64,000 bases of DNA from a virus. The notes below the pieces were generated by a model. It worked only from the letters and a program-made list of their open reading frames with translations. It had not been told where the DNA came from and made no database searches. The translations under genes and the position numbers were made by a program. The stretch covers positions 1-64,000 of the IMG/VR virus record IMGVR_UViG_3300010883_000022; one strand, given 5' to 3'. How positions within the stretch are numbered: the stretch's first letter is position 1; every line of letters begins with the position of its first letter. Shown piece by piece: positions 5,511 through 38,943 of the stretch.

Positions 5511-5556
5511 ATTGTGGCACCTTCCGGCGAGGTTATGGGCATAAAGCCCCAGTACC

Positions 5557-5578: not shown

Positions 5579-5620
5579 AGTACCAGAATACCGTTTAACG
5601 AAGTATACGTTATGACTTAA

Positions 5621-6103: not shown

Positions 6104-6175
6104 AAGTAAAACCTCCATGTTTAAAGCACAAATTGCCAAGCCTGCGCCAGGTTGTCGGTATAAAAACCGGTAAAA

Positions 6176-6201
6176 GGTAGCCGCCTATTGAGACGGCTAC
6201 C
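6176..6201 (-). terminator. Hairpin downstream of tail sheath gene
   Basis: Perfect 8-bp inverted repeat GGTAGCCG / CGGCTACC with a 10-base loop, 20 bases after the sheath stop codon. There is no strong T-run. It probably stabilises or partly terminates the sheath message. Confidence 0.55.
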
Positions 6202-6220
6202 CGGCACCAAATAATGATAA

Positions 6221-13896: not shown

Positions 13897-14829
13897 TTAC
13901 GTGAAGTTAGCGCGGGCAAGACCACTGGTGTGACCAATGGTTCCGCCTGCAGTTTCATAGGCGAAGAACTCAAGCATGTAAGCTTCCCGCTTGATGTACA
14001 TAGTCGTATCCTCAAGCAAGTAGTTCTTACCAATGAACTTGGGATCCGCGAACTGGTAAATGGTGTCGTCAGCAACAAAACCGGTTCCGCGCTTGATCGT
14101 GATGATCCAGCGACAGTTCAGCAGTTCAGCTTCCGACCAACCATTCTTCAGGGTGTCCTGGCTGAAATCACCACCAGCCTCGTCACGACCCCACTTCATG
14201 ATCTCTTTGATCGTCACGTTGTTGACCAAGATCGTGTTAACTTCCAGGTGACTGGGAGTTGACGGCATGATCTTCAACGATTCGACAACCGTGTCACGAG
14301 TGATACCGCCAACAATATTCTTATGCTGGACGACACCTGACGTGGGAGTTGCGACACCCACAGTACCGATCGCTGTATTAACAGCGGCGAGGAACTTAGA
14401 GTCCTCTTCGGCCAACATGTCCTTGATAGCGTTGTCGCTAAGGACCTGCCGAATGTCCATGACGTAGGTACGCAGTTCATCAACATCTTTGGTGAAGCGC
14501 GGGGTCACGATACGATCGAACATAACCCGGTAGCGCGGTCCGCGGATGTACAAGTTAATCGGCAAGGTTGCAAACGGGATCGAGATGGCCGCGGGGCTAT
14601 CAGGTTCCTTGTCCACAATCTTGACCGGCTTGTCGGTATCGACCTGACGATCCAGTTCGTCGTTGCTAATCTGCAACGGCGGAAGGATGCGGCGGTAAAA
14701 CCCGTCTTCCCGCATCTTCGTACGAGTAAAATCATTCACCGCATCAATAGCGGTTTTCTCCATTCCTGGAGTCGAAAGCTGCTCAAACAGAGTCTCGTTG
14801 AGCAGTTGAGCTTCTGACTTATTAGTCAT
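13897..14829 (-). CDS. Major capsid protein (HK97-fold type)
   Basis: 310 residues with an exceptional ribosome site (ACACGGAGGTTAATAAACC then ATG). Features typical of HK97-fold capsid proteins of large phages include a short N-terminal region ending GMEKTAIDAV, an extended-arm stretch (MREDGFYRRILPPLQISNDE), spine-helix sequence (VDELRTYVMDIRQVLSDNA) and a C-terminal beta segment (TTMYIKREAYMLEFFAYETAGG). It forms the icosahedral shell. The first 25-30 residues may be a propeptide cut by the maturation protease at the K-x-A sequence; this is inference. It lies downstream of the protease and scaffold-like genes, as usual, and a hairpin follows it. Confidence 0.88.
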   Translation of the reverse strand: MTNKSEAQLLNETLFEQLSTPGMEKTAIDAVNDFTRTKMREDGFYRRILPPLQISNDELDRQVDTDKPVKIVDKEPDSPAAISIPFATLPINLYIRGPRYRVMFDRIVTPRFTKDVDELRTYVMDIRQVLSDNAIKDMLAEEDSKFLAAVNTAIGTVGVATPTSGVVQHKNIVGGITRDTVVESLKIMPSTPSHLEVNTILVNNVTIKEIMKWGRDEAGGDFSQDTLKNGWSEAELLNCRWIITIKRGTGFVADDTIYQFADPKFIGKNYLLEDTTMYIKREAYMLEFFAYETAGGTIGHTSGLARANFT

Positions 14830-14850
14830 GGTTTATTAACCTCCGTGTTC
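14830..14850 (-). promoter_or_regulatory. Strong ribosome-binding region of capsid gene
   Basis: The 21 bases before the capsid ATG, containing GGAGG and AT-rich spacer, are identical to those before the next gene upstream (15463-15483). Identity beyond the Shine-Dalgarno core suggests a selected translation-initiation or regulatory element, or a recent copy. Confidence 0.7.
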
Positions 14851-14886
14851 AATTTCATTTTAAAAGTAACATGCTCAACAGGGAGC

Positions 14887-15462: not shown

Positions 15463-15483
15463 GGTTTATTAACCTCCGTGTTC
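15463..15483 (-). promoter_or_regulatory. Strong ribosome-binding region identical to that of capsid gene
   Basis: Same 21 bases as at 14830-14850, including the GGAGG core and the spacer up to the ATG. Confidence 0.7.
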
Positions 15484-15517
15484 GGATTTTTAATTTCGGA
15501 ATAAAGTGGCCACCGCA

Positions 15518-15919
15518 TTAGTAGCCTAAAAGGGCCTCGCGATATCGACGGTCGGACTCTTTTTCGTTAGAAGTCGGAACGCCTGCAAACGGGCTGGTAA
15601 GGCTGTCATATGCGGCAGACTTAACAGTACCCGTCGGAGTACCCAACTGGCCGGCTTCCGCACCTATGCGGTGGTCGGCGACTTTCTCAAGGATTTCTAG
15701 CGCCTTGATCGGATCCCGGAGCATATCAGCCGCTGCTGACTTTTCATGCTCGTCAATTCGTTCATTACGCGCCAGCGCGTCAACTACAGCAGGGATTAAC
15801 TCAGCGTACTTCTGCTGCACGGCCTGCTTCTCAGCTAGGACCGTTTCTGCTTTATCAAGCGCAGCAGAAGACCAAGCAATCTGCTCGATGACCTTCTGTT
15901 GAAGGGTTTTATTGGACAT
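15518..15919 (-). CDS. Capsid-module helical protein
   Basis: Start set at the ATG at 15919 (MSNKTLQQKVIEQ), 9 bases after GGAGG in ACACGGAGG; an ATG that overlaps the GGAGG itself is unlikely. Product 133 residues. The first 95 residues are helical (ALDKAETVLAEKQAVQQKYAEL). The end is flexible and contains GTVKSAAYDS, a K-x-A type sequence. It is encoded between the scaffold-like and decoration-like genes. It may be a core or minor capsid protein; unrecognised. Confidence 0.65.
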   Translation of the reverse strand: MSNKTLQQKVIEQIAWSSAALDKAETVLAEKQAVQQKYAELIPAVVDALARNERIDEHEKSAAADMLRDPIKALEILEKVADHRIGAEAGQLGTPTGTVKSAAYDSLTSPFAGVPTSNEKESDRRYREALLGY

Positions 15920-17350: not shown

Positions 17351-18793
17351 CTAATTTTGCAGGATACTAAGCGTTAATGTCAACGATAATTCCGCGCTTT
17401 GCGGTTCCATTTGAGTAAATGCGGCAACTTTATATAACGCATACTGCCGCGCAAGTTCTTCGCCGGGACCAGTAAAGGCTGCTGCCTTTTCCACACCCGG
17501 CAAAGGATTAACTCCTCTAAGTGTTGCCTTACGTATTCTACTCTCTATATGATTTGATTTCAAAGAGTAGTCTGCTGCCAACGTGTTAGCAAGCTTACGA
17601 TACTCTCCCATGTGTGTAGTTTCAGTGCTGATGAACGGATTGTTGCGAGCTGCTGTTTCAAAACTGCCATCCGTCAACATGCGATCATAAACACCAAAAA
17701 GATGTTGCTTAACTTGTGGTGCAACCGATGCAGCCTTTTCTGTATCTCCTTGTACCATAACAAGAAATTCTTCCACAGGTAATACAATTCCTTGTTCTGC
17801 CAGTGCACGAGTCATTTGAGCAACTTTAGTCGTCGTTACAAATTGCGCTCCAGGAATATTCACGGAAGTCCGTACTTCTGGTGAAAATGCCACAGATTTG
17901 TGCGCCCATTCTGAAACGCGCCCTTCTGCATCACTTAATTGCTGCGCCAGTTTAAGTTGCGCAATTACAGCAGAAGAAAGCTTCCCATCAAGAGAAAAAT
18001 CTAACGGCATGGACAACTGCATATTCTCAGCAATTTCCGCTCCAGAAATAGTTGTCCCGTCCGAAGCCGCCTTCTCTAGTTGCCCCATTGTATAGGCAAT
18101 ACGATCAGCTGGCCTAAATACTTTGGAAATATCAAAAAATGTTGGGTCAGGATTATCTGCGTGAAGAATATGCCCACTCTCTAACACCGTACCAATTTTA
18201 GATGCAAGTCCGCCGTGCTTGCAAAGAGCGCCCGTACAATACTCACTACGATTGCGCGCTTTGTTACCACAGCCACTACAAACATCGAACGGTACGCGAC
18301 AAGCCATACTAACAGCAATATCATCACCATTAGCAAGTTTTTCCATCTCTTCGTCTGCAAGCAACCCGCCATTTCGTTTCGCCGCTTCCTTAGTGCTGTT
18401 AAGCGCAACAAGGAGCTCAATCCGCTTCATATCCGGATTGTAATTCGAAGCTTTAATAAGTCCGAAGCTTTTGTCCGGGTTCTTATTCTTATGGTTACGA
18501 TACCAACGCGCATGCTTTACGAACGTATTATGATCTCGCTTACACGTTGCTTCTTTAAATCCATCGCCATTACGATTCGGCCCGTAGAACTCCGTTGAAC
18601 CAACCGCAATGAGGTGTACAGGAATATCCCCCTCATCTAATTTGACGTTCTGGATCTCATCGGCAAACCGGTGACCTGCTCGTTTAATAAACGAACTTAA
18701 GTCGCTGCCTTTAAGGCCTTGGCTAGAAACTTTAATCAGTTGCGCAATAGGCTCGTCAAACGGCCATGCGCCTGGTGTGATGATTTTTAACAT
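17351..18793 (-). CDS. Capsid maturation protease with Cys-rich insert
   Basis: 480 residues. The N-terminal half fits a prohead protease of the herpesvirus-assemblin-like kind. The stretch STEFYGPNRNGDGF is followed by the helix HNTFVKHARWYRNHKN, which supplies a candidate catalytic His. GDDIAVSMACRVPFDV supplies a candidate catalytic Ser. Directly after it, CSGCGNKA and SEYCTGALCKH could bind zinc. The C-terminal 230 residues are helical with many K-x-A sequences (LEKAASDG, TEKAASVAP, VEKAAAFTG, LYKVAAFTQ), which may be self-processing sites. It precedes the scaffold and capsid genes. The assignment rests on motifs and gene order. Confidence 0.72.
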   Translation of the reverse strand: MLKIITPGAWPFDEPIAQLIKVSSQGLKGSDLSSFIKRAGHRFADEIQNVKLDEGDIPVHLIAVGSTEFYGPNRNGDGFKEATCKRDHNTFVKHARWYRNHKNKNPDKSFGLIKASNYNPDMKRIELLVALNSTKEAAKRNGGLLADEEMEKLANGDDIAVSMACRVPFDVCSGCGNKARNRSEYCTGALCKHGGLASKIGTVLESGHILHADNPDPTFFDISKVFRPADRIAYTMGQLEKAASDGTTISGAEIAENMQLSMPLDFSLDGKLSSAVIAQLKLAQQLSDAEGRVSEWAHKSVAFSPEVRTSVNIPGAQFVTTTKVAQMTRALAEQGIVLPVEEFLVMVQGDTEKAASVAPQVKQHLFGVYDRMLTDGSFETAARNNPFISTETTHMGEYRKLANTLAADYSLKSNHIESRIRKATLRGVNPLPGVEKAAAFTGPGEELARQYALYKVAAFTQMEPQSAELSLTLTLSILQN

Positions 18794-20289: not shown

Positions 20290-22869
20290 TTATGAATTCC
20301 GAAGTTCTCTAGACTGGTTCTCCCAGCGCGCGTCCTGCCGTGCCTTATCCGCAGCTGCCTGGCCATCGCTAGGATGAAATTCAGGTAAGCGGCTCCGAAT
20401 TTTGCCTGGCGGGCTCTCATCTTTAATGGCACCTACAAGACTGCCGCCCGCGGCCCTCCCAAGGCCCACACCCTTGCCAATCACAGAACCCGCGGCCTGC
20501 CCACCACCAGTAATACGTTTACCAGCGTCACTCAAAACAGATCCAATGCGCGCTCCTTCTTCGTCGTGTAGTCGGTCTTGCCCTGCAGTTAAGCTGCGTC
20601 CACCGCCACCGAGGCTGCCAGGTGCGTGGACCGGCTTGGAGTAGTCGGCAGCTGTAGCTGCAAGATCTTTTTCATTTCCTATGATATTTGCACCGATATC
20701 ACGTGGATCCATAATCCCACCACCACCTTCCACTCCTGCCAGATGCTGTCTAATCAAATTGCGCATCAATAGGGGGGAGTCTGCAGCGCGCGGGGCTAAC
20801 TGAACAATCTCATTGTAAGCTTCCGTGACCATGTTCGGATCTTCTTGGCTAATGATCGGATCATTTGCCATCATACTCTCAAGCTGCGCCCGTACGACAA
20901 TCCGCTTCAGTTCTTCTTGATGCGAAGGATCGTCTAGTTCTTCTACGTAATCTTCAACTGCTTCCTCCTGAGCCGACTGGGTAGCATCGCCGCCTCGCTG
21001 AACGCCCTTAAGCAGATGACTCAGCGCAAAAATGCTACCTACGCTCGATTGCTTCGAGTGCGCGGTTTTACCTACCTGCTCTAAAAGAGATGGATCAGCA
21101 TCAAAACCTTCGACTCCACCCATCCGCAGCGGCCGTGCGGGCGGGTCCCTGTCTCCGGGAACCTCGTCGAAGTCGCGTCCTCTTCGCAGCCCCAAGTCAC
21201 CGGCTTCCAGGTCCCTGTCTCCGGGAACCTCATCGAAGTCGCGTCCTCTTCGCAGCCCCAAGTCACCGGCTGCCGGGGTAGTCAAGTTGGGCATGTACTC
21301 TGCCCCACCTGGATTAATGTCTGCGCCGGGTCGCTGGTCGGGATCAAATGGTAGTACTGCGCCCTCGTCGAGGATGCCGTCAGCGTTGCTGTCAAACGGA
21401 CTACGAGCGTGCATACCAGGAATAGGCGGACGAATATCCCCGACCACGGTCTGCTCACTGTCCAGGATACCGTCGCCATTTAAGTCAGTGTCGCTCGGGC
21501 GGAACTGCGGGCCGCCGGGGACAGGTTTAAATTCGGCATCGGCGGGTGGTGTGGTTGCGCCTTGCCGGGACGGATCCTGCGCAGGGTCATATGCCTGCTC
21601 TGCTGGCGTTTCCGCGGCTGGTGGCGTGGGCTTGAGCTTGTTTAAGTCAGCCAGGCCCTGGTCATACCCGCCTGGATCCTGGAGCGCGGGCTTCTTAACC
21701 TCCGGCGTCCCAGCAAATGCGTCATATGCGACCCCACCACCTAGGCCTACGGCGCCGCCCATCGCAAGGTCGCCCAGTAAGCTGGAGCGCTCCTCATCTT
21801 CTTCCTTATCCTTGTTCTTAAAATAATTGAGTGCGCCTCCGGCCGCTAAACCTGCGCCTGCGCCATACAACGGCGCCATTGATGCCTGCTTATCGTCAGT
21901 CGCCGGCAAGGGTAGATCCAATACAGATCGTCCTTGCCTGGGGGAAAAAGGGCGGATTTGGTCCTCTGCCTTCTTGGTGACATGCTGAGCAAGCTCATGA
22001 AGAGTGCGCTGCTTATCGTGTACGTCGGCGGCGAGTTTGATGCTCTCGCGAATCCATTTCCAAGGCGCCTGGTTCGGCTGCACCTCCACAAGACCGGCAC
22101 TCTTCTCCTGCCGCTTCTTTTTCTTCTCCTCCATCCACTGCTCATGTGTGGAGCTAGGGTGGATGGCAGAACAATTGTGCTTAGCCTCTTTACTGAATTG
22201 CGGCACGGTTCGAGAAAGCTGGTTAAGAATAGCGCGCCCCATGCCCCCGTGCTGGATCTCTACAGCATCGCAAGCGTCGTCAAAAGACACGCCGCCCGGA
22301 GTACGGAAGTAATTGCTAAGCTTCTCAAAGTTGCTTGTAAGTAGATCCTTGGCGCGAGCAACCTCTCGCCGGCACTCTTCGAACCGACGCTTATCGAAAT
22401 CAACGGAGTGGATCGCTTTCTTGATCGCCGTGTGTGACTCTCCCGCGTATGGCTCCGGAGGCGTATCGACCAGTTTCCAGTCGACCTTGCGCGCGGATAT
22501 GTGAGCTGCTTCTTTACGCTGCGCAAATATCGGCGCTCGCGTGTACTCATCATCAACGATAGTCTCGTCGCGCTTTTGCGCAGCAGACTTAACATTCGTC
22601 GGATACAACCGCCCCATAATATCCTGCTGATCTGCCAGCTCAAACGTTGCAGCCTTATCAAACGGACTTTCCGCTGCCATACGCTGCTTACCCGTACGCC
22701 CGGTGTTATATGCAGACACCATCAAGTTGATATGCCCCGCAGGGATATCATGCTCCGAGGCGGCCTTCACGATGGCGTCATTAGGGCTTGTGCCCTCGTT
22801 GACGGCATCCGCAACCGATTCCAGGGCAGTCAGAACTCTACTTTCAGCTTCCTTGCTCAGTTTTTTCAT
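20290..22869 (-). CDS. Large multidomain virion protein with glycine zippers and calcium-type repeats
   Basis: 859 residues. Residues 1-60 form a helical N-terminal domain. Residues about 340-395 have two glycine-zipper segments (LYGAGAGLAAGGALNYF, GDLAMGGAVGLGGGVAYDAF) around an acidic loop. Residues about 460-500 contain two calcium-binding loops of thrombospondin-3/dockerin type (DTDLNGDGILDSE, DSNADGILDEG). A 22-residue unit is tandemly duplicated around residues 532-575. Many K-x-A sequences occur (FDKAATFE, NVKSAAQKR, VGKTAHSK). No strong ribosome site is seen, and the start overlaps the end of the upstream gene, so translation is probably coupled. Likely an ejected internal virion protein. 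Confidence 0.68.
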   Translation of the reverse strand: MKKLSKEAESRVLTALESVADAVNEGTSPNDAIVKAASEHDIPAGHINLMVSAYNTGRTGKQRMAAESPFDKAATFELADQQDIMGRLYPTNVKSAAQKRDETIVDDEYTRAPIFAQRKEAAHISARKVDWKLVDTPPEPYAGESHTAIKKAIHSVDFDKRRFEECRREVARAKDLLTSNFEKLSNYFRTPGGVSFDDACDAVEIQHGGMGRAILNQLSRTVPQFSKEAKHNCSAIHPSSTHEQWMEEKKKKRQEKSAGLVEVQPNQAPWKWIRESIKLAADVHDKQRTLHELAQHVTKKAEDQIRPFSPRQGRSVLDLPLPATDDKQASMAPLYGAGAGLAAGGALNYFKNKDKEEDEERSSLLGDLAMGGAVGLGGGVAYDAFAGTPEVKKPALQDPGGYDQGLADLNKLKPTPPAAETPAEQAYDPAQDPSRQGATTPPADAEFKPVPGGPQFRPSDTDLNGDGILDSEQTVVGDIRPPIPGMHARSPFDSNADGILDEGAVLPFDPDQRPGADINPGGAEYMPNLTTPAAGDLGLRRGRDFDEVPGDRDLEAGDLGLRRGRDFDEVPGDRDPPARPLRMGGVEGFDADPSLLEQVGKTAHSKQSSVGSIFALSHLLKGVQRGGDATQSAQEEAVEDYVEELDDPSHQEELKRIVVRAQLESMMANDPIISQEDPNMVTEAYNEIVQLAPRAADSPLLMRNLIRQHLAGVEGGGGIMDPRDIGANIIGNEKDLAATAADYSKPVHAPGSLGGGGRSLTAGQDRLHDEEGARIGSVLSDAGKRITGGGQAAGSVIGKGVGLGRAAGGSLVGAIKDESPPGKIRSRLPEFHPSDGQAAADKARQDARWENQSRELRNS
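21145..21276 (-). repeat. 66-bp tandem duplication inside a virion gene
   Basis: Two adjacent copies, 21145-21210 and 21211-21276, differing at about three bases, in frame and coding for a 22-residue unit containing GDLGLRRGRDFDEVPGDRD. The few differences suggest a recent duplication. Confidence 0.9.
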
Positions 22870-28089: not shown

Positions 28090-30468
28090 TTATGTTCCCG
28101 CAATCGGGCCGAGGTCGACTCCGAGCGATCCTTCTTCTGGATAAGGGTCGACGCTCTTCTGCTTAAGGAAGAGCACCAAGTCGCCCATAGATTCAAATGT
28201 ATTGCGCAAACTATCCTCTAGCTCAGGCATATCAGCTTTGCCATAACGATCGCCAAAGTCATCCTGGTGGAAGTAGAACATGAAGAGAATGCGACCAACG
28301 CGATCCATCCCCTTCATCAAGTCACCAAGATATTTGTCTACCATGGAATCCTGTCGAACAGCTTTCAACATAGAGCCAATCATGGCCGTATCAAAAACGT
28401 CCTTCTGGCCAAGCTGCGCTGCTTGCTGTGCGCCCTGCATTGCCATCGGATCGGGTACTGCCGTCGGATCGTACTGAGAGGGATCTCCGCGATACATATC
28501 CGCAACAGGTTGTTCTGCGCTCATGGGGAACTGCGCAGGCACCTGCCCACCAATCACATCCGTTGTACCCATCTGTGGCCCCGGGAAGCCTGGCGCCGTC
28601 GGGCCTGGCTGCAAGAAGGGATCCTGCGCCTGCTTCACATATTCTGCGTACTTCACACGATAACGAGCTTTACGTTGCTGCTCGGCCTCACGCAACATTG
28701 CACGCGCCTGCTTCTCGCGGAACCCGTGATCTTTGATCAATGCGATGAACGCCTGCTTCGGCTCCATGCGCAGATTGTTAAGCTCTACTTCATAACCACT
28801 GTGATAGATAGTCAGCTCGGCCGTCTTGGCCATGATCATCATCTCAGCATCAGCAATGTTGCCCGGAGCTAGCGGCTCTTTACTGTCGGAATCAAAATCA
28901 TCCGCGGGCTTAGCTACCGGAATGGCATAAAAATCTTCCGGAACAAACACATCACCCTGGGAAGCAACTAACTTGGAACCACCTTTACCCTTAAGATGAA
29001 TTCGCTGTCCGTCTCTATAAGGACTGTATTCGTCATCCCATTCTGCTCGACTAAAATCTCGGTGGCCGGCCTCGTAAACAGCGCGCCCACGTTCAGCATG
29101 AGTGTGAAAATTAACGTTGTAAACAATTTTGCCGTCTGCATCCCCGATAGTACTCTCAACACGGAAAGGAACCGTGCACTCACCTGTGCGCCCGCACAGC
29201 ATATAAGTGCTTCCTTTACTAAGGCTATCAGGAACCGACAACCCCTCGAGCCAGTCGGTGTACTCATCGCCCTCTACCTTAGAGACCGCCCACACTCGCG
29301 TGGGGTGTACGTTGATCCAGTCCTTCTTCCCGCCGCCTTCCGAGCGAACAAGCGTAGCAAACTTAAACCGCCCATTCGGCCCCATCGGGGCGAGTGCAAT
29401 AAAACAGCGCTCAATATCACCAGTATTTGTCAGAACCTCGTACAAGCCAGACTCAGCTGGGTTGAACAACTTCTTCTCTACCTGCGTATTATAAGCAACG
29501 CTGACCTCGTCCCCCGCGCGCTCATCCTTGATTAGAACACCGTCACGCAGAAGCTTTTCCTGGTCTTCCTCATCAGGGCCCTCGGGGAGCGTTTCCGACC
29601 TCGTGTAGTCGATCGTGATGATTTCCAGTGCGCCAGTTTTAATCGGGTGTGGGATAGTTGTATCGATCACGGAACCGGTACGAGATGTACGCTTACCTGT
29701 CGGTTGCGCGGGCGTTAACACATTAGAAGCGTTCTTGTGTAGTTCGCAGGCTTCCTTGAGTGCGCCAGAAAGTTTATCGCCATATAGCTCAGTCGCCGCC
29801 TTAAACACCGACGGGTAGCGATTAGCGACCTCGTACATAAACTTCACAGAATTCCCGCCCTCAGCAGCAACCACCGCCGGGAAGGTGCGCATATTTGCAA
29901 ACTTTTCTTGCTCCGCGGGCGGCGTCGTCGCCATATATGCCCAAACGGGGAGGAAGTCCTCTACCCATGCAGGGTATGCAGAACTACTCTTCACCCTATT
30001 ACTTGATAGTTGCTGCAAACTCGGACTCCTCACGCCGAGTTGGTGCGTATCCTTATCTGTCCCGTCGCCAAGAATGTTAGGTTTGCGACTAAGGAGATAA
30101 TTTAACCAGTTCTCCTTGAGGGGCACGAATACATCCTGATCTTTGATGTACAAGAGCTCGTGGCCTTTGAGCTCTCCGCGCAGGAAAAAGATGGGCACGT
30201 ACAGCCACATCGAACCGACCTTGAAGCCTACAACTCCAGCGGCCTTAGTATTTTCCTGGTTGCGCTCCAGGAGCTGAAACCCAACCTCAAAATCAAGCAG
30301 ACTGGGCGCCTTATCTCTTAAGTATGCATGAGCAAGATTACTCAGCGCCTGTTCAAACGGGATATCCTGCCCATCTCCACCGAGTTCGGCTTGCTTAGCC
30401 CACCCGCGCTGTTGATTATTCAGGGACAGTAGACTTTTTTGTGTACTGTGAGATAGTTGCAAGACCAT
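28090..30468 (-). CDS. Large virion protein of unknown role
   Basis: 792 residues. The N-terminal region (AHAYLRDKAPSLLDFEVGFQ, VGSMWLYVPIFFLRGELKG) is followed by beta-rich central parts, a Pro/Gln/Gly-rich linker near residues 620-690 (FLQPGPTAPGFPGPQMGT) and a helical C-terminus (MVDKYLGDLMKGMDRVGRIL). K-x-A sequences occur at WAKQAELGG, MAKTAELTI and YVKQAQDPF. It is preceded by a 97-base gap after the RNA polymerase gene. Size and place would allow a portal, but I see no portal signature, so I leave it unnamed. Confidence 0.7.
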   Translation of the reverse strand: MVLQLSHSTQKSLLSLNNQQRGWAKQAELGGDGQDIPFEQALSNLAHAYLRDKAPSLLDFEVGFQLLERNQENTKAAGVVGFKVGSMWLYVPIFFLRGELKGHELLYIKDQDVFVPLKENWLNYLLSRKPNILGDGTDKDTHQLGVRSPSLQQLSSNRVKSSSAYPAWVEDFLPVWAYMATTPPAEQEKFANMRTFPAVVAAEGGNSVKFMYEVANRYPSVFKAATELYGDKLSGALKEACELHKNASNVLTPAQPTGKRTSRTGSVIDTTIPHPIKTGALEIITIDYTRSETLPEGPDEEDQEKLLRDGVLIKDERAGDEVSVAYNTQVEKKLFNPAESGLYEVLTNTGDIERCFIALAPMGPNGRFKFATLVRSEGGGKKDWINVHPTRVWAVSKVEGDEYTDWLEGLSVPDSLSKGSTYMLCGRTGECTVPFRVESTIGDADGKIVYNVNFHTHAERGRAVYEAGHRDFSRAEWDDEYSPYRDGQRIHLKGKGGSKLVASQGDVFVPEDFYAIPVAKPADDFDSDSKEPLAPGNIADAEMMIMAKTAELTIYHSGYEVELNNLRMEPKQAFIALIKDHGFREKQARAMLREAEQQRKARYRVKYAEYVKQAQDPFLQPGPTAPGFPGPQMGTTDVIGGQVPAQFPMSAEQPVADMYRGDPSQYDPTAVPDPMAMQGAQQAAQLGQKDVFDTAMIGSMLKAVRQDSMVDKYLGDLMKGMDRVGRILFMFYFHQDDFGDRYGKADMPELEDSLRNTFESMGDLVLFLKQKSVDPYPEEGSLGVDLGPIAGT

Positions 30469-30565: not shown

Positions 30566-32440
30566 CTATTTCCAACCTTTACTCAAACCAGAGCGCCCAA
30601 AGGTCTCGCCAGACATCAAGGAAGGAACATAACTAGTTCCGCTTGTATCGCTCACATCTCCACGGTGAAGACCTGAAAGTAAGCTACCCTGCCCACGTTT
30701 CTGCCTGGCGCCCATCATCCTAGCCGCCCAATCAGGATCGTACTCCAGTGATTTTTCTGCTGGACGCATTTCCGGCTGAAATCGCGGAGGCTCGTCATGA
30801 ACTTCCAGCCTATCAACCCCGAACTGTTTGAAATCTTTCAACATGCTCGGGCGAATCTTTGTACCAATAGTATAATGCAAGACGGGTCTCTCCAGATACT
30901 TTCCTTTTGCCTGGCGGTAATCAATTACCTGACTTCCTGGCCGCGCTTGGTACTGATTAACAAAGGAACTATACGGAATTATATCACCCGGCACATAGTC
31001 ACCGACCTCTTCATCTATCCGAACGTGGTCGATCAACCCCCGGGATACCAGCTCAATATTACGCCTATGCACACTAATTCCCGCGTCAGCGTAGGCATCG
31101 CTTAGGCTCCCCACAAGGTACCTGCGCCCTTCTCCGATGCCCTTATGTTGCACAATTTCTGCCGGATTGGGGACGCCTGCAGAAAGCACATCGCCGGCCT
31201 CTACCGTGTCGCCCGGCTTTACATTTACTTGGAGGCCTGGTTTCACGTAATGTTGCTCGCCCTGAATCGTTACGTAACTGCCCCCTTGAGGAGCCGCTTC
31301 AACCTTTTGTACTTTTCCATCAACTTGGGCATGCGCTGCGCCGTGCTTAAATGTCTTGGGAACATTGACCAACTGGTTAATCAACGCAAAACCGCTGACA
31401 CCTGCGGCAGCTCCCGCTACACCACCAGAGTGCTTAGATGAAATCTGCGCTTGGGTGAGCGGCTCAGAAACAGCTTGTGCAGCAGCCATTCCTACATAAT
31501 CACCAATAGGGGATAGCCCACCGCGCTCTCTCGAGCCCACATCCCGCGCATAAACACCGCCATCTGCCGGGCCACCTACCAACGGACTCCGGATAAGGAT
31601 TTGCTTAGTCCCACCCTTCCGCAGCTCCTTCAGAATTTTCTGCGTTAATACCGTGTTACGCTTATAACCACCCGCGGGTAATGCAAGAAGTGCGCCCTCG
31701 CTATCCATATCATCCGTATCAACGGGTAGTCCCAGTCGCGCAGCACCCGTTTCTTTATCGTCGTCTAAAGCGCTAACTAACAATCGGTGCGTTGCGCGGT
31801 TCATTTGCTTGGCCATGTACCCAGCATCAGCCGTAGCCAACTTAACATCAGTGATGCCTTTGCGCGCACCGTATGTACTAGCCCAATACTCCACAGGATT
31901 TAAACCCTCAGAGTAACTGCTAAGTACTGGGATGGGCAGCGGGCGGTCCTGGCCGTCCACATATATCCCATCGCCCGCAAGCAATCCGCGCAAGCTCCGC
32001 GCGTTGCCGCGGGACCCCGATGCGACCTGGCTCGCGAGGGGATTATTTTCTCGGGTACTTTCCTGATAAATCGCATCAATGAGCGGTTCGTTAGCGGCAC
32101 CAACAGCTTTAAGGATCTCTTCGTCTTTGCGCTTATCACTAAGCTTAGGGTTGCTATGAATAGCGGCAATCTTACGACGAAGCGGTCCGTATGCTTTTTG
32201 CGCAGCTAATGATTTGCGCATATGCTTCAAACCAAATGAAGTCCCGCCAGTAGAGTAAGCAACATCACGACCAACATCGGACAACTCTTTAGCAATCTGA
32301 CGGTACTGTTCAGGATACTTCTCTGCTACTTCCTGCAACAACGCATCGATGCCCTTCTTGTCGAGCTTGCGATTGTAGTCTCGCAAGTTCGCGGGGAGGG
32401 TCTCGTTGACCATCAATTGTCCGATAGTTGTATTCAACAT
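30566..32440 (-). CDS. RNA polymerase beta' subunit, C-terminal half
   Basis: 624 residues matching beta' from just after the catalytic domain to near its end. The N-terminus TIGQLMVNETLPANLRDYNR matches the TVGR...VPKGLPY segment of bacterial beta'. The sequence YSEGLNPVEYWASTYGARKG, about residue 177 on, is the bridge-helix region. VGMAAAQAVSEPLTQAQIS and KHSGG, about residues 315-340, match the trigger-loop base. VEAGDVLSAGVPNPAEIV matches the late jaw/C-terminal part. The Cys zinc site of beta' is replaced by SPLVGGPADGGVYARDVG, without Cys. It works with the beta-beta' fusion encoded four genes upstream. Confidence 0.92.
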   Translation of the reverse strand: MLNTTIGQLMVNETLPANLRDYNRKLDKKGIDALLQEVAEKYPEQYRQIAKELSDVGRDVAYSTGGTSFGLKHMRKSLAAQKAYGPLRRKIAAIHSNPKLSDKRKDEEILKAVGAANEPLIDAIYQESTRENNPLASQVASGSRGNARSLRGLLAGDGIYVDGQDRPLPIPVLSSYSEGLNPVEYWASTYGARKGITDVKLATADAGYMAKQMNRATHRLLVSALDDDKETGAARLGLPVDTDDMDSEGALLALPAGGYKRNTVLTQKILKELRKGGTKQILIRSPLVGGPADGGVYARDVGSRERGGLSPIGDYVGMAAAQAVSEPLTQAQISSKHSGGVAGAAAGVSGFALINQLVNVPKTFKHGAAHAQVDGKVQKVEAAPQGGSYVTIQGEQHYVKPGLQVNVKPGDTVEAGDVLSAGVPNPAEIVQHKGIGEGRRYLVGSLSDAYADAGISVHRRNIELVSRGLIDHVRIDEEVGDYVPGDIIPYSSFVNQYQARPGSQVIDYRQAKGKYLERPVLHYTIGTKIRPSMLKDFKQFGVDRLEVHDEPPRFQPEMRPAEKSLEYDPDWAARMMGARQKRGQGSLLSGLHRGDVSDTSGTSYVPSLMSGETFGRSGLSKGWK

Positions 32441-32464
32441 CCGTGTTTACCTATCAACGACTAC

Positions 32465-32851
32465 CTACGCTTGGAACGAACTTCCGCAACCGCATGACTT
32501 AACAGCATTTGGATTTTCGAAAGTGAACCCCCGTTTGTCTAGTCCGTCGTGCCAATCAATAACCGTACCATCTAGGTACAGGGCGCTCTTCTTATCAACG
32601 ACGACATCAACACCATGCTGGGTGTACCTATTGTCGGCTGATTTATCAAATTCAGATTCGAATTTGAGCGAATAACTGAATCCGCTACATCCGCCGCCTT
32701 CTACACCGACTCGCAAGAAGGTTGCCGCATCGAGTACGATCTGCAGGAAGATGGCGTCGGCTGGTGCCTGGGCCATCAGGGCAGCATTGACCTGGTCTGT
32801 CTTAACTTTTGTGACTTCTGCCGCTGCTTTTTCCGTTATAGAAACTGGCAT
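32465..32851 (-). CDS. A-type iron-sulfur cluster carrier (IscA/ErpA/HesB family)
   Basis: 128 residues from an ATG preceded by GGGGAAG. The family's three Cys ligands are present: GGGCSGF (Cys55) and SCGCGSSF (Cys120, Cys122). The fold motifs [19 protein letters not shown] and [16 protein letters not shown] are also there. Length is slightly above the usual 105-120 because of an insertion near residues 20-35. These proteins carry Fe-S clusters to target enzymes in the cytoplasm. In this genome it lies between the two RNA polymerase genes; candidate targets such as a phage Fe-S enzyme are not visible in the window. Confidence 0.93.
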
Positions 32852-32854
32852 AAT

Positions 32855-33427
32855 TTATGCACTTCCCCAGCTATTAAATACTGTTGTATATGGTTTCAAA
32901 TGGTCAATAATATCTTCGAGCATCAGGACATCAGAAATACACTTCTTAGTAATCTGGTCCATCGCTTTTTTATCGCCGTCAAGAATGGCCCGTAACCAAA
33001 CCTGACCATCCACATTCTTTTTCTGATTAACTCCCAGCACAGATGCGATGCGCTCTAGGCTGTTGTAGCCCAACCTCAAACTTTTGCGCGCGATCTTTAC
33101 CGGATCTACAATCTTAAAATCAGGCAACGGCGGAAGATCGTTAACTAACAACCTGGTACGCAAGAAAGGCAGATCGAAATCTACCCCGTTATGCGCTACC
33201 AAGATGTCGTACTTCTTCAACTCATTTGCTACTGCTTCAACAATCTTCGAATCATCCGACCGGGCTTTCGCCCAGTTTGGATTCAACTTATCAGCTCGAA
33301 ACACTGTAGGCTTCTTAAACGGTGTCTTGATAACAGCCGCCAGAATAATCCCAAAATCTGCCTGTAACGAACTACACTCTAGATCAAAGCACGCAGATCC
33401 AATCATATGCCGCTTTGTGCCACTCAT
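32855..33427 (-). CDS. DnaQ-like 3'-5' exonuclease with altered Exo III motif
   Basis: 190 residues from an ATG preceded by GAGGGAA. RNase H-like fold with Exo I FDLEC (Asp15, Glu17), Exo II HNGVDFDLPFL (Asp83, Asp85) and Exo III KCISDV (Asp166). In the DEDDy group a Tyr stands four residues before that Asp; here it is Lys162. It is closest in style to predicted exonucleases that act on DNA or RNA 3' ends. Lying inside the RNA polymerase gene group, it could act on transcripts or in DNA repair. Function of the unusual site is unknown. Confidence 0.85.
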   Translation of the reverse strand: MSGTKRHMIGSACFDLECSSLQADFGIILAAVIKTPFKKPTVFRADKLNPNWAKARSDDSKIVEAVANELKKYDILVAHNGVDFDLPFLRTRLLVNDLPPLPDFKIVDPVKIARKSLRLGYNSLERIASVLGVNQKKNVDGQVWLRAILDGDKKAMDQITKKCISDVLMLEDIIDHLKPYTTVFNSWGSA

Positions 33428-33458
33428 ATAAGTTCCCTCGCTTCCTTGCTCAGTACAT

Positions 33459-33698
33459 TTATGGCCTAATACGCGGAGATATATCTACCTCGTCCACTAG
33501 GACAGTTTTATTAACCCCCAATGATTCAAGTAATGAATTGAAGTCCTTATCTCCAACCTGCGACGTATAGTACGCACCTGGATGAAATTCAACTATCAAC
33601 GAAAGTGGGTTACCAGTTTCTTCATCATATACGACAACCCGGGTAGTTTTTACCTTTAAAGGCTTGCCGTTCTCATCAAATAATTCTGCACGTAACAC
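33459..33698 (-). CDS. 79-residue unknown protein in polymerase operon
   Basis: Starts at GTG 33698, directly after the upstream stop. Sequence with beta hairpins (RVVVYDEETGNPLSLIVEF) and an acidic end (VLVDEVDISPRIRP). No recognised family. Position between the PMGG-repeat gene and the exonuclease suggests it is made along with the transcription genes. Confidence 0.65.
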   Translation of the reverse strand: MLRAELFDENGKPLKVKTTRVVVYDEETGNPLSLIVEFHPGAYYTSQVGDKDFNSLLESLGVNKTVLVDEVDISPRIRP

Positions 33699-33700
33699 AC

Positions 33701-34477
33701 TTATTGACCCCGACTATTCGCATTACGCGCCATCTGTGCAAGTGCCGCAGTCCTATTAAAAATATCCGCTGCAGAAGGGGATATGCGCGCTTCACCAGTA
33801 GAACCAGTAAACGGCGAACCAACTGTTGGTACCCCTGACAACTCTTCAGAAACCTTAAGCATGTCACCACCGCCGCCGCCGTCGCCCATCGGAGGCCCGC
33901 CTCCGGCTTCAGGGCCCATTGGCATTGCTGGTTGAATTGCCTCGATCGGTTTGATCGCACTGCCTGGACCGGCAAGATCTACTGGCGGCGCCTCCAGGCC
34001 GTCAGCACCTTCGGGAGCCGTAGTGCCTTCCGGTGGCGGACCAAGCAAAGCTTCCGGAGGTAAACTAACGCCCATCGCGTTAGAAATGGCAACAATCAGC
34101 TTTTCCATGTTGTACAGCTTGGTGTTCAATTCTTCCGGATCAAATTTCTTTGCCTTGGCTCCGGCAGGACCCATAGCTCCGACGCCACCGCTGACGCCGG
34201 CATTAGAAAGCTCCTCCTGAATAATACTCCTAACATCCTCCGTAGGCGGAGGCGGCGGAGCATCCATTGGCGGCTCCATCGGAGGAGGTCCGCCCATTGC
34301 GGGATCACCGCCCATTGGAGGTCCACCCATTGGAGGTCCACCCATTGGAGGTGCGCCGCCCATTGCGGGATCACCGCCCATTGCGGGATCACCGCCCATG
34401 GGTCCGCCGGGAGGAACAATCCCCTGTTTCTCAAGCTGCCATGTTGCGAGCTTCAAAAGTTCTCTATTAATACCCAT
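33701..34477 (-). CDS. PMGG-repeat low-complexity protein
   Basis: 258 residues from an ATG preceded by AGGAGA. Begins MGINRELLKLATWQLEKQG, an amphipathic helix with a K-x-A sequence. It is followed at about residues 24-62 by a Pro-Met-Gly-Gly repeat (GGDPAMGG, GGPPMGG) and a proline run. A helical region (FDPEELNTKLYNMEKLIVAI) and more Pro/Gly-rich sequence follow. It is probably a flexible virion protein. It directly follows the RNA polymerase fusion gene; whether it binds the polymerase is unknown. Confidence 0.68.
   Translation of the reverse strand: MGINRELLKLATWQLEKQGIVPPGGPMGGDPAMGGDPAMGGAPPMGGPPMGGPPMGGDPAMGGPPPMEPPMDAPPPPPTEDVRSIIQEELSNAGVSGGVGAMGPAGAKAKKFDPEELNTKLYNMEKLIVAISNAMGVSLPPEALLGPPPEGTTAPEGADGLEAPPVDLAGPGSAIKPIEAIQPAMPMGPEAGGGPPMGDGGGGGDMLKVSEELSGVPTVGSPFTGSTGEARISPSAADIFNRTAALAQMARNANSRGQ
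34291..34400 (-). repeat. 15-bp tandem repeats encoding GG(P/D)(P/A)M units
   Basis: About seven units near 15 bp, such as GGTCCACCCATTGGA and variants, in frame with the PMGG-repeat protein. Likely prone to copy-number change. Confidence 0.85.
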
Positions 34478-34488
34478 TTCAAGGTCTC

Positions 34489-37400
34489 CTAACCGTTTAA
34501 TATTGTTACTTGCTGACCTGCATCAATTTCACCACGGCGATAAGCACGAATAGCCTCTGCCTTTGAAGAAAAAGTTCTAGGGCCTTTTCTATTCTTCTTT
34601 GTAGAGGCTGCGTACAAACCACCTGTATATTCCTGAGACGGCTTGTAATGCACATTAAAATCACGCGCTGAAAACAAATTACGAGATGGCATTAGTTTGT
34701 TAATCGCCTCGTCCACTGCACTTGATGATACAGGTACATGATACTGCATTGCATCCCCGTCAAAATCTGCGTTAAAACCCCCGACAATAAGCGGGCTTAC
34801 CTGCATTGTGTCATTTTTTACCAGCTGAGGCCAGAAAGCCATAACACCATACCGATGAAGTACCGGCGCACGATTAATGACAACAGGACGCTTAGACATA
34901 ATTTTGAGCAACTCTTTGCGCGCAACAGCAGAGCGATCCTTTACCGCACGTGCTGCATCTAACTTGGGAATACCGCGCCTACCCAGATCTCTAATAATAA
35001 GCGGCTGATAAACCTCCCACGCTTTTTCCTCAGGTATCCCAACTTGATCCATATCCAAATCAGGATTAGGCGTGATAGCTGCCCTACCTACTAAGTCGGT
35101 CGTATTGCTCAGTAGCTTTCTTTGCACAACGCTGTATTTTGGATTTTTACCGAAAACTTCCCGAAGGATCCCGCGAACTTGTTTTTCTTGAGCATCACTA
35201 CTAATAGGATCTCCCAAACCCGTTACTGCTTTAAATGCATCATAAACAGATAGCCGTTCTTCACCAATATCATCAGATTTCTTAGCGTTCTCGCGTAGAA
35301 ACTTATTGGCTTCAAACAAATCTCGGTACAAGTAATTCGTGTCGGAAACCAGCTGGTTTCCTGAGCCTTGCATAACACTTATTGGACGAAATGCAGGGGG
35401 CAACACGGGTGCACGAGAAAGCATCCAATCCCGCGGATGTAGCTTCTGTTTCTCTGCGCCTTTAAAGTATCGCAAACGCTTCACAGCAGCATTACGCTTC
35501 TCACCTTTACTCGACTTGACATCTTCTCGCGCCTGCGCTGTTGCCTGCTTCAAGTTTATCTTATCCAACGCATGCGCAATTGCGCGAGAACCTGTCTGCC
35601 CCTGGAATTCTTGCTTACCGGATAAGATATCCCGGAAATTAGATTCCGTAAGCCCCAGCACGCGCATGATAGGTTCTTGCATTGCTGGGTTTGGCATAGG
35701 CTCAGCAAGACGAATAAACGACCACTTATTGCCACCGTGCCCGCCCGTCGCCGAAGGATCAAACAAACCACCCTTTAACGGCTTTAGACCCTGCTTCCAG
35801 TCGACAGTGTTGGAACCCGTAATCTCTCTATCGCCGGCTAACTTGGTTACATCTGCCTCCGTCATAGCCAACAGATGAGTGCGCGTTCCCTTCCGAACTG
35901 GGTTGATTCCCGCCGCCCGCAGCTGATTCACAAATTTCTCATAAACCATGGGAACCTTTGGTGTCGCGGGCTTGAACCCCGCCTGGAATGCCGACCAGTA
36001 ATCAGGATTCATTTGTCCCCGAATCATCTTCGCGTCCCTGATAACCTCAGTAGCGCCATGCGAAAGCAACGCGTTAAGCTCAAGCATTCCAATCGTCTTA
36101 GCACCTTCCTCGCCACCTTTAGACGGACGCCCCTCTGACGTGTATCCCCCAAAGCTACGCCCTGTTCCCTTAGACTCGGCAACGTGGTGCAATTTCATGA
36201 AAAAGCGATTACCAACAAAGACATCATTAATCTGGCGCCCGTTAGTGGGGTCCGTAATCGTTTCCAGATCCTGTATATCATTTGCTTCAAGTTCGCGCAT
36301 TGCGAACTCGGTGAGGTCTTCAATATTTTCAAAATCCTGGATCTTATATGGCTTCCCCGTCCGCTCTGCAATTTTACCAAGCGCCGCTTCTATCATTTGC
36401 GCAGGATTAGTTCGGCTAATAATACCGAGCGGATTTAACAATAGTTCAGAAGAACGACCATCAGCCGCTACGGGCATTTCTTCATCTGGAATGATCTCAG
36501 AGATAACGCCCTTATCACCGTACCTACCTGAAAGCTTATCGCCCACTTTTGCCGTAGCCGTAGACTTAACCGTAACTAGGATTCCGTGCTTGGTTTTGGC
36601 AACATCTGTGACAATGCCGGGCGCATGGTGGGACCACATTTGGGTTTTATCAATGTACTTGGGGGCCCGCCCACGGGAGACCTGGTTAGCTGTCCGTTCT
36701 CGTTCTCGGACAACAAGTGCCAACGGATCTCCGCTGTTGACGGTCGTTCCTGGTTTAATGACTCCGTCATTGTCCATTTTCTCCAAAGTAGTGCGATCAA
36801 ATTTGCCAGGAAACATAGCGGTGAAACCAGCCTTGCTAGTCCGCACCTTTTCCTCAGAAAAATCGACCGTGGTCTTGTACATATGTTGCGAAGACAACCG
36901 GTTAGCAAACGATTCACTAATAACAACGGCATCCTCGAAATTAAGGCCGCGAAATGGAACGTATGCTACACGTGCATTTAACCCAAGAGCCGTCGTTCCC
37001 TTGTCGTCTACGAAATTAGACTTAGCTAACAATGCGCCCTTCGGAAACCGCTGCCCCTTCTGAACAACAACATCCTGATGAATATACGTTTTACGGTTAT
37101 ATGGATAGTTGTCGTACAGCTCTATCGTCTCAACAGCACCGTTACCATATTTAACAGTGATCTCATCTTTATCGACCTTCGTAACAACCCCGCCATGCTT
37201 TGCGCGAACGGCGCCCATTTTAGTTCCATACCGATTTTCAAAACTATCATCCTCACCCGGAATACCCGCTTGAACCAACGGAGCTTCCGCATTATCCAGC
37301 GGGAGTGCTTGCGTTAACATCCTGGCCGCCATCACAGATCTCTGCGCCTTAGTTGCCGATTTCATCGGGATCATATTGGCAAGAAAAGAAAAAGCGCCCT

Positions 37401-38943
37401 CCATATGCGGAACCTCGTAATCAACCGCGTGAGGAGACACGTGCCGAACAGTGCCGCCAGACATGGCAGCTACCCGTGATTTACCCGATCGCAGCTCTCC
37501 TGGAAAAGCCACAACAGAAGACGTAATAGTCTCCGGGTCTCGCCACACCGTTTCACCGCTGCGAACATCTCGCATCTTTGTGTAAATCTTACCGTCCCGT
37601 CCTTTACGCGCATTACCCGCCATACGAAGATCGACGCCCGCACGCTCTGACTCAGGGGTTATGATCGGATCAATGAAACCAAAGTGGCTGGACTGAACAT
37701 TCCGCGCTTCCGCGGGCACACCACGTGCGCTCTGAATGCCGCCATCGCCCATCTTTGAAACACGGCTTTGCTGCTCAAAGATTTGCGCAGGATTGATCCC
37801 TTCCAACGGCTGCGCCAGAGAACCAAACAACACCGAATCCAGGCTCTTATTCATCAAGCCCGTACCAATACTCTGCACGTTTTTCTTAGATGTGGCTTTC
37901 CAAAGTGCGCGGTTAAGCAAACCTTTATTCTTGCCAATACGCTCTGCAAGCAAATCCTCAGGACCCAAAAAACGCATGAACGCCAAGGAGTCCCGATCAT
38001 CAACCTCGGCCGGGTCTAATCCCAATTTAGCTAGTACAGCTGGATCCGCTCTATTCTGAATAGCCAATAGCTTCCGAGTACTAGCAAGTAAACTTTCAAC
38101 AGTTACTCGCTTAGTTGGTTTACCCAGCGTCCGCTCTGTTGTTGCGGGATCCAACTCCATCTTTGCAAATGCCTTAGCAATTGCTTCCTGGCGAGATCGC
38201 GCGTCCGTATCAACACCGCCGAGAACAAACTTCTTATAGATCTTCGCCAAGTCCGCTGGAGACGCCTTTTGCATATTCGCCGAGGCGAGCTCGCCCCAAG
38301 CTGTCTGTAGTTCCTTATCCGTCGCGCCCATTGCGCGGAGAATAGAAATCAAGGGGATATTCGCGTTACCTACGTTCGCCTTAAAAAGGCCCGTTGCGGG
38401 GTCCAAATGGATACGATGCGATAAACCCGTACCAGGCTTTACGTTTATGCTGGATTCAAGCTCGCCGTTTTCTTTTTCCCGATGATAAACTCCGGGTCGC
38501 AGTCGCATTTGATTAGACAACGTATACTCATTGCCGTTGCGGATAAACGTGCCGCGGCTAGAAAAGTAAGGCACCTGCGCAACCGTTGCGCGCTTATTAT
38601 CAAGCACCGTCCCGGAAGCATTATCAACTAGCTGCCAAGTACCGCGTAAACTACGGCGCAGGTTACGTTGCTCCAAAAGCGCGCGTTTTTGATCAGCGAG
38701 AGAAATTTCCTTCTCATCGTCGTCGTAATCTACGTCAACAAGTTGTAACGTATGCGTCTGGTTAGAAACTGGTTCAATCGCGCGCGCAGCTGCTCGCACA
38801 TTTTCATAAATGCCGCGCCGCACCGCCGCAGAATCCCCAAATTCTCGAAGGCCTGCGGGCGCACGAGAGGAAGGCGCCAACGGCTTCGCGGGTGGTGTCA
38901 CCAACGACGGGGGCGGATTGCGGGGATCAAGTACACTTGGCAT
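34489..38943 (-). CDS. RNA polymerase beta fused to N-terminal half of beta'
   Basis: 1484 residues. About 1-1040 are beta: NFEDAVVISESFANRLSS (near 667), GDKLSGRYGDKGVISEI (801-817), then GTGRSFGGYTSEGRPS and GAKTIGMLELNALLSHGA. About 1050-1484 are the front of beta': GGLFDPSATGGHGGNKWSF, WMLSRAPVLPPAFRPISV, NRAPVLHRYGVMAFWPQL and the catalytic NADFDGD at 1391-1397 (34753-34773). It stops about 90 residues later, just before the bridge-helix half, which is a separate gene. The zinc-finger cysteines of the beta' N-terminus are absent. Together the two chains should form a complete catalytic core. No alpha, omega or sigma subunit is seen here. Confidence 0.95.
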   Translation of the reverse strand: MPSVLDPRNPPPSLVTPPAKPLAPSSRAPAGLREFGDSAAVRRGIYENVRAAARAIEPVSNQTHTLQLVDVDYDDDEKEISLADQKRALLEQRNLRRSLRGTWQLVDNASGTVLDNKRATVAQVPYFSSRGTFIRNGNEYTLSNQMRLRPGVYHREKENGELESSINVKPGTGLSHRIHLDPATGLFKANVGNANIPLISILRAMGATDKELQTAWGELASANMQKASPADLAKIYKKFVLGGVDTDARSRQEAIAKAFAKMELDPATTERTLGKPTKRVTVESLLASTRKLLAIQNRADPAVLAKLGLDPAEVDDRDSLAFMRFLGPEDLLAERIGKNKGLLNRALWKATSKKNVQSIGTGLMNKSLDSVLFGSLAQPLEGINPAQIFEQQSRVSKMGDGGIQSARGVPAEARNVQSSHFGFIDPIITPESERAGVDLRMAGNARKGRDGKIYTKMRDVRSGETVWRDPETITSSVVAFPGELRSGKSRVAAMSGGTVRHVSPHAVDYEVPHMEGAFSFLANMIPMKSATKAQRSVMAARMLTQALPLDNAEAPLVQAGIPGEDDSFENRYGTKMGAVRAKHGGVVTKVDKDEITVKYGNGAVETIELYDNYPYNRKTYIHQDVVVQKGQRFPKGALLAKSNFVDDKGTTALGLNARVAYVPFRGLNFEDAVVISESFANRLSSQHMYKTTVDFSEEKVRTSKAGFTAMFPGKFDRTTLEKMDNDGVIKPGTTVNSGDPLALVVRERERTANQVSRGRAPKYIDKTQMWSHHAPGIVTDVAKTKHGILVTVKSTATAKVGDKLSGRYGDKGVISEIIPDEEMPVAADGRSSELLLNPLGIISRTNPAQMIEAALGKIAERTGKPYKIQDFENIEDLTEFAMRELEANDIQDLETITDPTNGRQINDVFVGNRFFMKLHHVAESKGTGRSFGGYTSEGRPSKGGEEGAKTIGMLELNALLSHGATEVIRDAKMIRGQMNPDYWSAFQAGFKPATPKVPMVYEKFVNQLRAAGINPVRKGTRTHLLAMTEADVTKLAGDREITGSNTVDWKQGLKPLKGGLFDPSATGGHGGNKWSFIRLAEPMPNPAMQEPIMRVLGLTESNFRDILSGKQEFQGQTGSRAIAHALDKINLKQATAQAREDVKSSKGEKRNAAVKRLRYFKGAEKQKLHPRDWMLSRAPVLPPAFRPISVMQGSGNQLVSDTNYLYRDLFEANKFLRENAKKSDDIGEERLSVYDAFKAVTGLGDPISSDAQEKQVRGILREVFGKNPKYSVVQRKLLSNTTDLVGRAAITPNPDLDMDQVGIPEEKAWEVYQPLIIRDLGRRGIPKLDAARAVKDRSAVARKELLKIMSKRPVVINRAPVLHRYGVMAFWPQLVKNDTMQVSPLIVGGFNADFDGDAMQYHVPVSSSAVDEAINKLMPSRNLFSARDFNVHYKPSQEYTGGLYAASTKKNRKGPRTFSSKAEAIRAYRRGEIDAGQQVTILNG

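Follow-up and report, generated by a model that had tools for sequence, protein, structure and literature searches.

The Polymerase Locus

The DNA analyzed here, hereafter the window, is a 64-kilobase (kb) stretch of the 65,250-base IMG/VR virus record IMGVR_UViG_3300010883_000022, a record about one third the size of related genomes. On its minus strand lie two genes for a bacterial-type RNA polymerase (RNAP): P0001, which encodes a chain in which β is fused to the N-terminal part of β′ (β′-N), and P0002, which encodes the C-terminal part of β′ (β′-C) as a separate chain. Both open reading frames (ORFs) are present at the positions given in Table 1, and the start codon of P0001 is preceded by GAGG 7 bases upstream. 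A survey of relatives confirmed this pair as a widespread, new architectural variant of phage two-barrel RNAPs, and the combined evidence makes it probable that the enzyme is a virion-packaged, α-independent, σ-directed two-chain polymerase whose ancestor was first fused and then cut.

Table 1. Features of the polymerase genes and the adjoining head module, in window positions; Arash is a cultured Salmonella phage with the same polymerase layout (aa, amino acids).
Feature	Position	Strand	Basis
P0001, fused β + β′-N RNAP chain, 1484 aa	34489..38943	-	Pfam, solved-structure matches, model
β double-psi barrel region, Rpb2 domain 6, P0001 residues 581-935	36139..37203	-	Pfam
Catalytic lysines K803 and K811, GDK..GDKG motif, P0001	36511..36537	-	Alignment
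β/β′ fusion junction (β C-terminus to β′ N-terminus), P0001 residues 1004-1062	35758..35934	-	
NADFDGD magnesium-binding motif, β′ barrel, P0001 residues 1391-1397	34753..34773	-	
P0002, separate β′-C chain, 624 aa	30566..32440	-	Pfam, solved-structure matches, model
Bridge helix, P0002 residues 182-217	31790..31897	-	Alignment, model
Trigger loop and helices, P0002 residues 316-359; SKH where cellular enzymes have TFH	31364..31495	-	
258-aa Gly/Pro-rich protein between both polymerase genes; homologues adjoin the polymerase in many relatives	33701..34477	-	
Arash virion protein gp218 homologue, immediately downstream of β′-C	28090..30468	-	
Arash virion protein gp220 homologue	20290..22869	-	
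Arash gp222 homologue, probably a head maturation protease	17351..18793	-	
Probable major capsid protein, homologous to Vibrio phage D69_0275; weak match to major head protein phrog_2522	13897..14829	-	

Domain Composition and Catalytic Elements

The Pfam domains of P0001 follow one another in the order Rpb2_3 (E = 4e-6), Rpb2_6 (5e-55), Rpb1_1 (4e-7) and Rpb1_2 (2e-22), and P0002 contains Rpb1_5 (2e-25). Compared with solved structures, P0001 corresponds to bacterial β over approximately residues 49–1014 and to β′ over residues 1089–1480 (E down to 1e-65), and P0002 to residues ~660–1171 of actinobacterial β′ chains (3e-40). The AlphaFold model of β′-C (mean predicted local distance difference test score, pLDDT, 87.0; predicted template modeling score, pTM, 0.73) shows a single bridge helix of 36 residues along with two trigger helices; that of residues 297–1484 of the fusion reaches a mean pLDDT of 86.6 and a pTM of 0.77. 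The best solved Foldseek matches are Thermus β′ for β′-C (E = 1e-29) and Thermus β for the fusion (1e-54). These results bear out an earlier note, made from the sequence alone, which had assigned β and the front of β′ with NADFDGD to the longer chain and the bridge helix and trigger loop to the shorter one: the Rpb2 and Rpb1 profiles fall into the split that it expected, and the trigger loop, whose possible absence it had raised, is found both in the alignment and in the model. Separate and complete β and β′ chains, as in the cellular bacterial core, are not what P0001 and P0002 encode.

No catalytic element is missing: K803, K811, NADFDGD, bridge helix and trigger-loop histidine can all be identified and are conserved across the related set, and the anatomy read from the sequences (DxDxD, barrel lysines, bridge helix, trigger loop) is that expected of a two-barrel, cellular-type RNAP. 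The trigger loop of the architecture with β fused to β′-N and a separate β′-C (hereafter the fused-cut form) reads SKH, TKH or AKH (rarely ARH or EKH), compared to TFH in cellular enzymes, i.e., the position of Escherichia coli F935 is occupied by K and that of R933 mostly by S or G. This K-H trigger loop is common to both branches of the cut group, and FH is kept by most single-chain relatives. At the position of E. coli H526, which is of interest for rifampicin sensitivity, the alignment shows Q in the window and N in Arash. Moreover, the N-terminal zinc finger of bacterial β′ is missing in P0001, just past the fusion junction, and the C-terminal zinc site is lost in the window clade but kept in Arash and the single-chain relatives. 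The loss of both zinc sites and of the R933 and F935 equivalents might be taken as a sign of a relic pair that is decaying or inactive. This is hardly credible, however, given that all catalytic residues are intact, that both folds are predicted confidently and that intact frames recur in at least 72 non-redundant loci. In addition, the ratio of nonsynonymous to synonymous substitution rates (dN/dS) is 0.086 for the 3′ half of P0002 in comparison with its nearest relative, L003, a value indicating purifying selection on this part of the gene.

Apart from this, the two chains contain no cysteine at all in their 2108 residues (30566–32440 and 34489–38943).

Distribution in Phages

IMG/VR was scanned with alignments of both proteins, covering the best 80 of at least 439 confirmed relatives for the fusion query and the best 80 of 103 for β′-C, and loci were considered non-redundant at 98% identity. 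Reading of the ORFs revealed a fused β + β′-N with a separate β′-C on the same strand in at least 108 loci (at least 72 non-redundant). The free β′-C beside the fusion is thus a recurrent pair, and what the earlier note regarded as a non-standard arrangement turns out to be standard in a widespread lineage of phages, of which four are cultured: Salmonella phage Arash, with virion proteomics, and Vibrio phages D69, D148 and D181 (D148 being represented only by a match whose layout is that of D181). β is unbroken in P0001 and nearly all relatives; a few fused-cut loci carry a further break inside it.

β, β′-N and β′-C are joined in one ORF in at least 31 loci (at least 29 non-redundant), with a length of ~2000–2140 amino acids where complete (e.g., L064:8896-15111, L065-L078, L081-L087, L090-L093, L151, L155, and L163). 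These single-chain polymerases lie on phage contigs and can be aligned with cellular enzymes over most of their length. Other divisions of the enzyme occur as well: β is separate from full β′ in Cobetia phage Carin-5, a full-length β′ ORF is found in Rhizobium phage RHph_Y65 and Vibrio phage Va2, and β′-N is separate from β′-C in Yersinia phage YerA41 and Escherichia phage EP_H11. A genome scan with close β′-C relatives yielded one phage-like contig in a Planctomycetia metagenome-assembled genome (MAG), a cellular enzyme from an Actinobacteria MAG, and, from a Lentisphaerae MAG, a chain of 1643 amino acids. The latter (L211:5122-10053, minus strand, on a contig shared with L189) is a single-chain β-β′ with stronger Pfam matches.

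Several polymerase genes of the survey are interrupted in other ways. At first impression, L088 (9496-14928) had separate β and β′; instead, it contains one single-chain frame broken only by in-frame TGA codons, one of which stands at the position of an invariant Trp in relatives, so that this phage probably reads TGA as Trp. LAGLIDADG inteins lie inside the fused polymerases of L005 (9929-15664) and L004 (1732-7413), one at the β/β′ junction and one in β, and inserts of similar size are present in many other relatives. In L062 (8878-12024 / 13938-15698) and L099 (1642-4758 / 5159-6907), β is broken at the identical place into two ORFs, the first of which ends, in L062, in an intein-like segment (weak Intein_splicing match), which may point to a polymerase gene with a naturally split intein. 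Vibrio phage D181 (L009) has group I introns at 7431-7711 and 3634-3841, one within the fused polymerase gene and the other shortly upstream beside a homing endonuclease gene.

Position of the β′ Cut

In the single-chain relatives, the β′ barrel is connected to the next domain by a linker of ~5 residues (..TDVIxVGGxxTTxGRxxLxxxLP..). The cut of the window group falls inside this linker: chain 1 ends, for example, in ..DTPVHIVEDK and a stop codon, and chain 2 begins with MLKTTLGQLLINEALP... In three cyanobacterial RpoC2 chains, their own residues 5–12 match profile position 23–24, which places the window cut ~12–19 residues N-terminal to the RpoC1/RpoC2 cut, as estimated from the start of these three profile matches. 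The closeness to the RpoC1/RpoC2 site claimed in the earlier note is thereby upheld; the two cuts are neighboring, not identical.

The division is not an intron or frameshift artifact, because there is no Rfam match in the window, the gap holds three further genes, and the arrangement recurs among relatives whose two polymerase genes are between 0.6 and 7.4 kb apart. A split intein joining the chains by trans-splicing was rejected as well: no intein sequence is present at the chain ends in the at least 72 loci, unlike in β of L062 and L099.

Evolutionary History

A tree of 54 taxa, including six cellular sequences (IQ-TREE, LG+F+G4), separates phage from cellular sequences with an ultrafast bootstrap (UFBoot) support of 100 and unites the single-chain and fused-cut forms (UFBoot 99). 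The fused-cut form is one clade (UFBoot 82) beside a single-chain clade (UFBoot 88), L016 is the nearest relative of the window, and the single-chain L211 branches off first within the phage clade; FastTree gave the same result with weaker support. Contamination by a host gene is ruled out by the tree together with the phage neighborhood of the genes.

The history favored by these sequences, although not proven, is that the common ancestor had a fused chain of ~2050 amino acids and that one branch then cut β′ once; the shared cut site and the K-H trigger loop provide additional support for a single cut. Since relatives have a complete single-chain β-β′, “fused, then cut elsewhere” is the more fitting description of the enzyme. 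However, constrained alternative topologies are 29–35 log units worse without being rejected by the approximately unbiased (AU) test (p = 0.22 and 0.08), which weighs against this history and is the reason why it is only favored. The competing possibility is that fusion and β′ cut arose independently in the branches of Arash and the window, or that the single chain is a rejoined cut form. The AU values leave room for it, and β′ cuts also occur in the phages YerA41 and EP_H11, but the fused-cut form is one clade in the best tree, its members share the identical cut point and the K-H trigger loop, and a single-chain polymerase is basal in the phage clade, which together make independent cuts or rejoining a somewhat unlikely, though serious, alternative to fusion followed by one cut.

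More broadly, a deep phage lineage may have turned the polymerase core into a single ~2050-amino acid chain without α and ω, one branch of which was re-cut into a two-chain, σ-directed, virion-packaged enzyme, a scenario that may be right or wrong with about equal probability. If true, phages would hold a natural series of one enzyme in its separate, fused, and re-cut states.

Partner Subunits

Partner subunits were searched for in 20 phage records, i.e., the window, Arash, D69, and 17 IMG/VR contigs of ~150–230 kb. Neither α (PF01000, PF01193) nor ω (PF01192) was detected in any of the 20, with 13–14 of 14 control genomes being positive. Rpb2_6 has exactly one match in each of the 20 records, although a very divergent second enzyme would escape this search. 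Sigma70_r2 is present in 8 of the 20 records, and window-clade genomes encode a divergent protein of ~245–265 amino acids with Sigma70_r3 (E down to 1e-9) and a marginal Sigma70_r4, so that a σ factor or σ-like protein is encoded by most related genomes. Divergent σ-like proteins were noted in L190, L191, L192, L194, L195, L196, and L197, with region 3 recognized in those scanned and regions 2 and 4 hardly so. Arash (OQ632216) has two σ factors, gp10 and gp196; of these, only gp10 appears among the virion proteins considered, which suggests one virion and one non-virion σ.

The earlier note had seen no α and concluded that assembly must differ from that in bacteria. The absence of α extends to all records searched, and the conclusion is supported for α and ω; it does not extend to σ, and because related phages encode σ-type factors, initiation may be more like that of bacteria than that of the phiKZ enzymes. 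Two points speak against a self-contained, σ-directed enzyme: the window fragment (65-kb record) contains no σ gene, and host α or ω could in principle bind the phage chains. Recruitment of host α and/or ω into a hybrid enzyme would be conceivable, as β and β′ are bacterial-like over most of their length and the absence of α is established for the phage genomes alone. It is nevertheless very doubtful, given that phages of several unrelated types work without α (PMC7598289, PMC10770324), that the covalent β-β′ linkage removes the need for a scaffold, and that a self-sufficient virion enzyme would have no host α at hand unless it was packaged.

Head Module and Virion Association

Arash gp218, gp219, gp220, and gp222 have homologues downstream of β′-C in the window, arranged as in Arash and followed by the capsid homologue, and the polymerase genes are located inside this head module, between portal-side and protease/capsid genes. 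In the Arash study, gp218, gp220, and gp222 are virion proteins by mass spectrometry (PMC10585845). The gp206 fusion yielded 3516 spectra in Arash virions, most of all virion proteins and above the capsid protein (1333), compared to 1210 for β′-C gp216 and 467 for the σ factor gp10 (PMC10585845). A rough calculation of our own from these published counts gives ~2.3 spectra per residue for gp206 and ~2.0 for gp216, which is compatible with both chains being near 1:1 in virions.

Virion presence is published for the relative Arash only, and two points from the same source weigh against packaging: Arash particles also contain ribonucleotide reductase, primase and ligase, and carry-over is named as an option by the authors (PMC10585845). 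The polymerase in Arash particles could therefore be partly carry-over, as metabolic enzymes and primase are in the same preparation. In the corresponding alternative, the two-chain enzyme would be a late, non-virion polymerase, made by host polymerase after infection and transcribing late genes; host polymerase could do the early work, because there is a single polymerase of this type per genome. This alternative is unlikely: carry-over would have to account for a spectral count of gp206 above that of the capsid protein and for the σ factor gp10 found alongside in virions, and the genes are situated within the head module. Packaging into the virion hence remains the preferred reading.

Comparison With Known Polymerases

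The closest published set are the multi-subunit RNAP-encoding Caudovirales, or mReC phages (PMC7481178). As in the present case, these are tailed-phage contigs, partly from IMG/VR, whose polymerase genes lie amid phage structural genes and whose alignable, bacterial-like β/β′ fall outside all cellular enzymes, which is also what the tree described above shows against its six cellular sequences. However, their description mentions “the β and β′ subunits” without fusion or cut and sets them apart from the crAssphage enzyme, which is fused (PMC7481178). In addition, the mReC capsid proteins belong to the PF07068/VOG11186 family (all eight detected are PF07068), whereas those of Arash and the window belong to another: a direct scan assigned the Arash protein to phrog_2522 and weakly to PF05065, and the window candidate weakly to phrog_2522. 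PF07068 has no match in the capsid proteins of Arash or the window; a search of the genomes was also negative, but lacked a positive control. The present lineage lies near the mReC phages or overlaps with them, but it is not filed here among those 97 published contigs, because the PF07068 capsid was not found. One guess is that the mReC filters may have counted one fused ORF for both subunits.

Polymerases of the phiKZ/AR9 type resemble the window enzyme in lacking α and ω, in cutting β′ past the catalytic barrel, close to the cyanobacterial position, and in the concept of a virion RNAP, but also have a split β, four to five core chains, two enzymes per phage (virion and non-virion), and no σ (PMC7598289). 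In the window lineage, β is intact and fused to β′-N, there is one enzyme per genome, and relatives encode σ-type factors, in agreement with the distinction from phiKZ drawn in the earlier note. In cyanobacteria and plastids, β′ is likewise cut in the linker behind the barrel, slightly further on, but β is separate and α and ω are present. The enzymes of Helicobacteraceae and Wolbachia contain α and ω as well. Natural in-line rpoB-rpoC fusions are known from both groups, in which, in contrast to the window, the enzyme is cellular and β′ complete (PMC7483510). The crAss-like gp66, P23-45 gp64/gp96, and YonO combine both barrels in one chain without α (PMC10770324, PMC7481178), but are far more divergent; the crAss enzyme was unrecognizable with β/β′ profiles to the mReC authors (PMC7481178), whereas most of the length of the window chains can be aligned with bacterial enzymes.

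Identical architecture and synteny of the head module are found in Arash, a cultured phage with virion proteomics, whose gp206 and gp216 are labeled “β” and “β′” in its description; the β′ barrel with the magnesium site in gp206 is left unremarked there, and the phage is regarded as an orphan with no relatives noted (PMC10585845). The earlier note had raised the possibility that the arrangement is already widely described, but no description was found in the open-access literature (subscription papers and preprints were outside the search), and it is absent from the reviews of 2021 and 2026 that were searched.

Proposed Mechanism

From these observations, we infer a core in which two chains take the place of β, β′, two α, and ω. 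The active centre would be formed in cis, because both double-psi barrels reside in chain 1, and chain 2 would supply the bridge helix, the trigger loop, and the remainder of β′, docking via an interface at the linker behind the β′ barrel as the sole inter-chain contact needed. The scaffold role of α is probably unneeded, since β and β′ are already tethered, and would be replaced by their covalent link. Promoters would most likely be chosen by a phage σ-type factor whose gene lies elsewhere in the genome. The enzyme would most likely be made together with the head proteins, packaged, and injected, starting phage transcription without host polymerase. The present form would have emerged when the ancestral ~2050-amino acid fused chain, kept in the sister group, was cut in the short linker behind the β′ barrel, and cyanobacteria and plastids show, by analogy, that a cut near this site can be compatible with function.

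The lineage offers cultivable phages with one-chain and two-chain bacterial-type polymerases that can be aligned residue by residue and have no detectable α or ω, and thus a natural test of how a universal enzyme works without its usual scaffold subunits. It makes testable which roles of α and ω are mere assembly, whether σ can act on an α-less core, and how packaging and injection of such an enzyme proceed. Furthermore, it corrects phage annotations in which such proteins are simply β and β′, and could supply laboratories with a bacterial-type polymerase encoded by one or two genes.

Neighboring Genes

A 365-amino acid protein (window 38959-40056, minus strand), encoded directly before the P0001 gene, contains a near-perfect internal duplication, with ERLYIDIAPDLIKHAQDMRK occurring twice, and has homologues in at least 83 loci. 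Further away (55753-60233, minus strand), a glycosyltransferase family 2 protein of 651 amino acids adjoins an 841-amino acid protein with glycosyltransferase-8 and methyltransferase domains.

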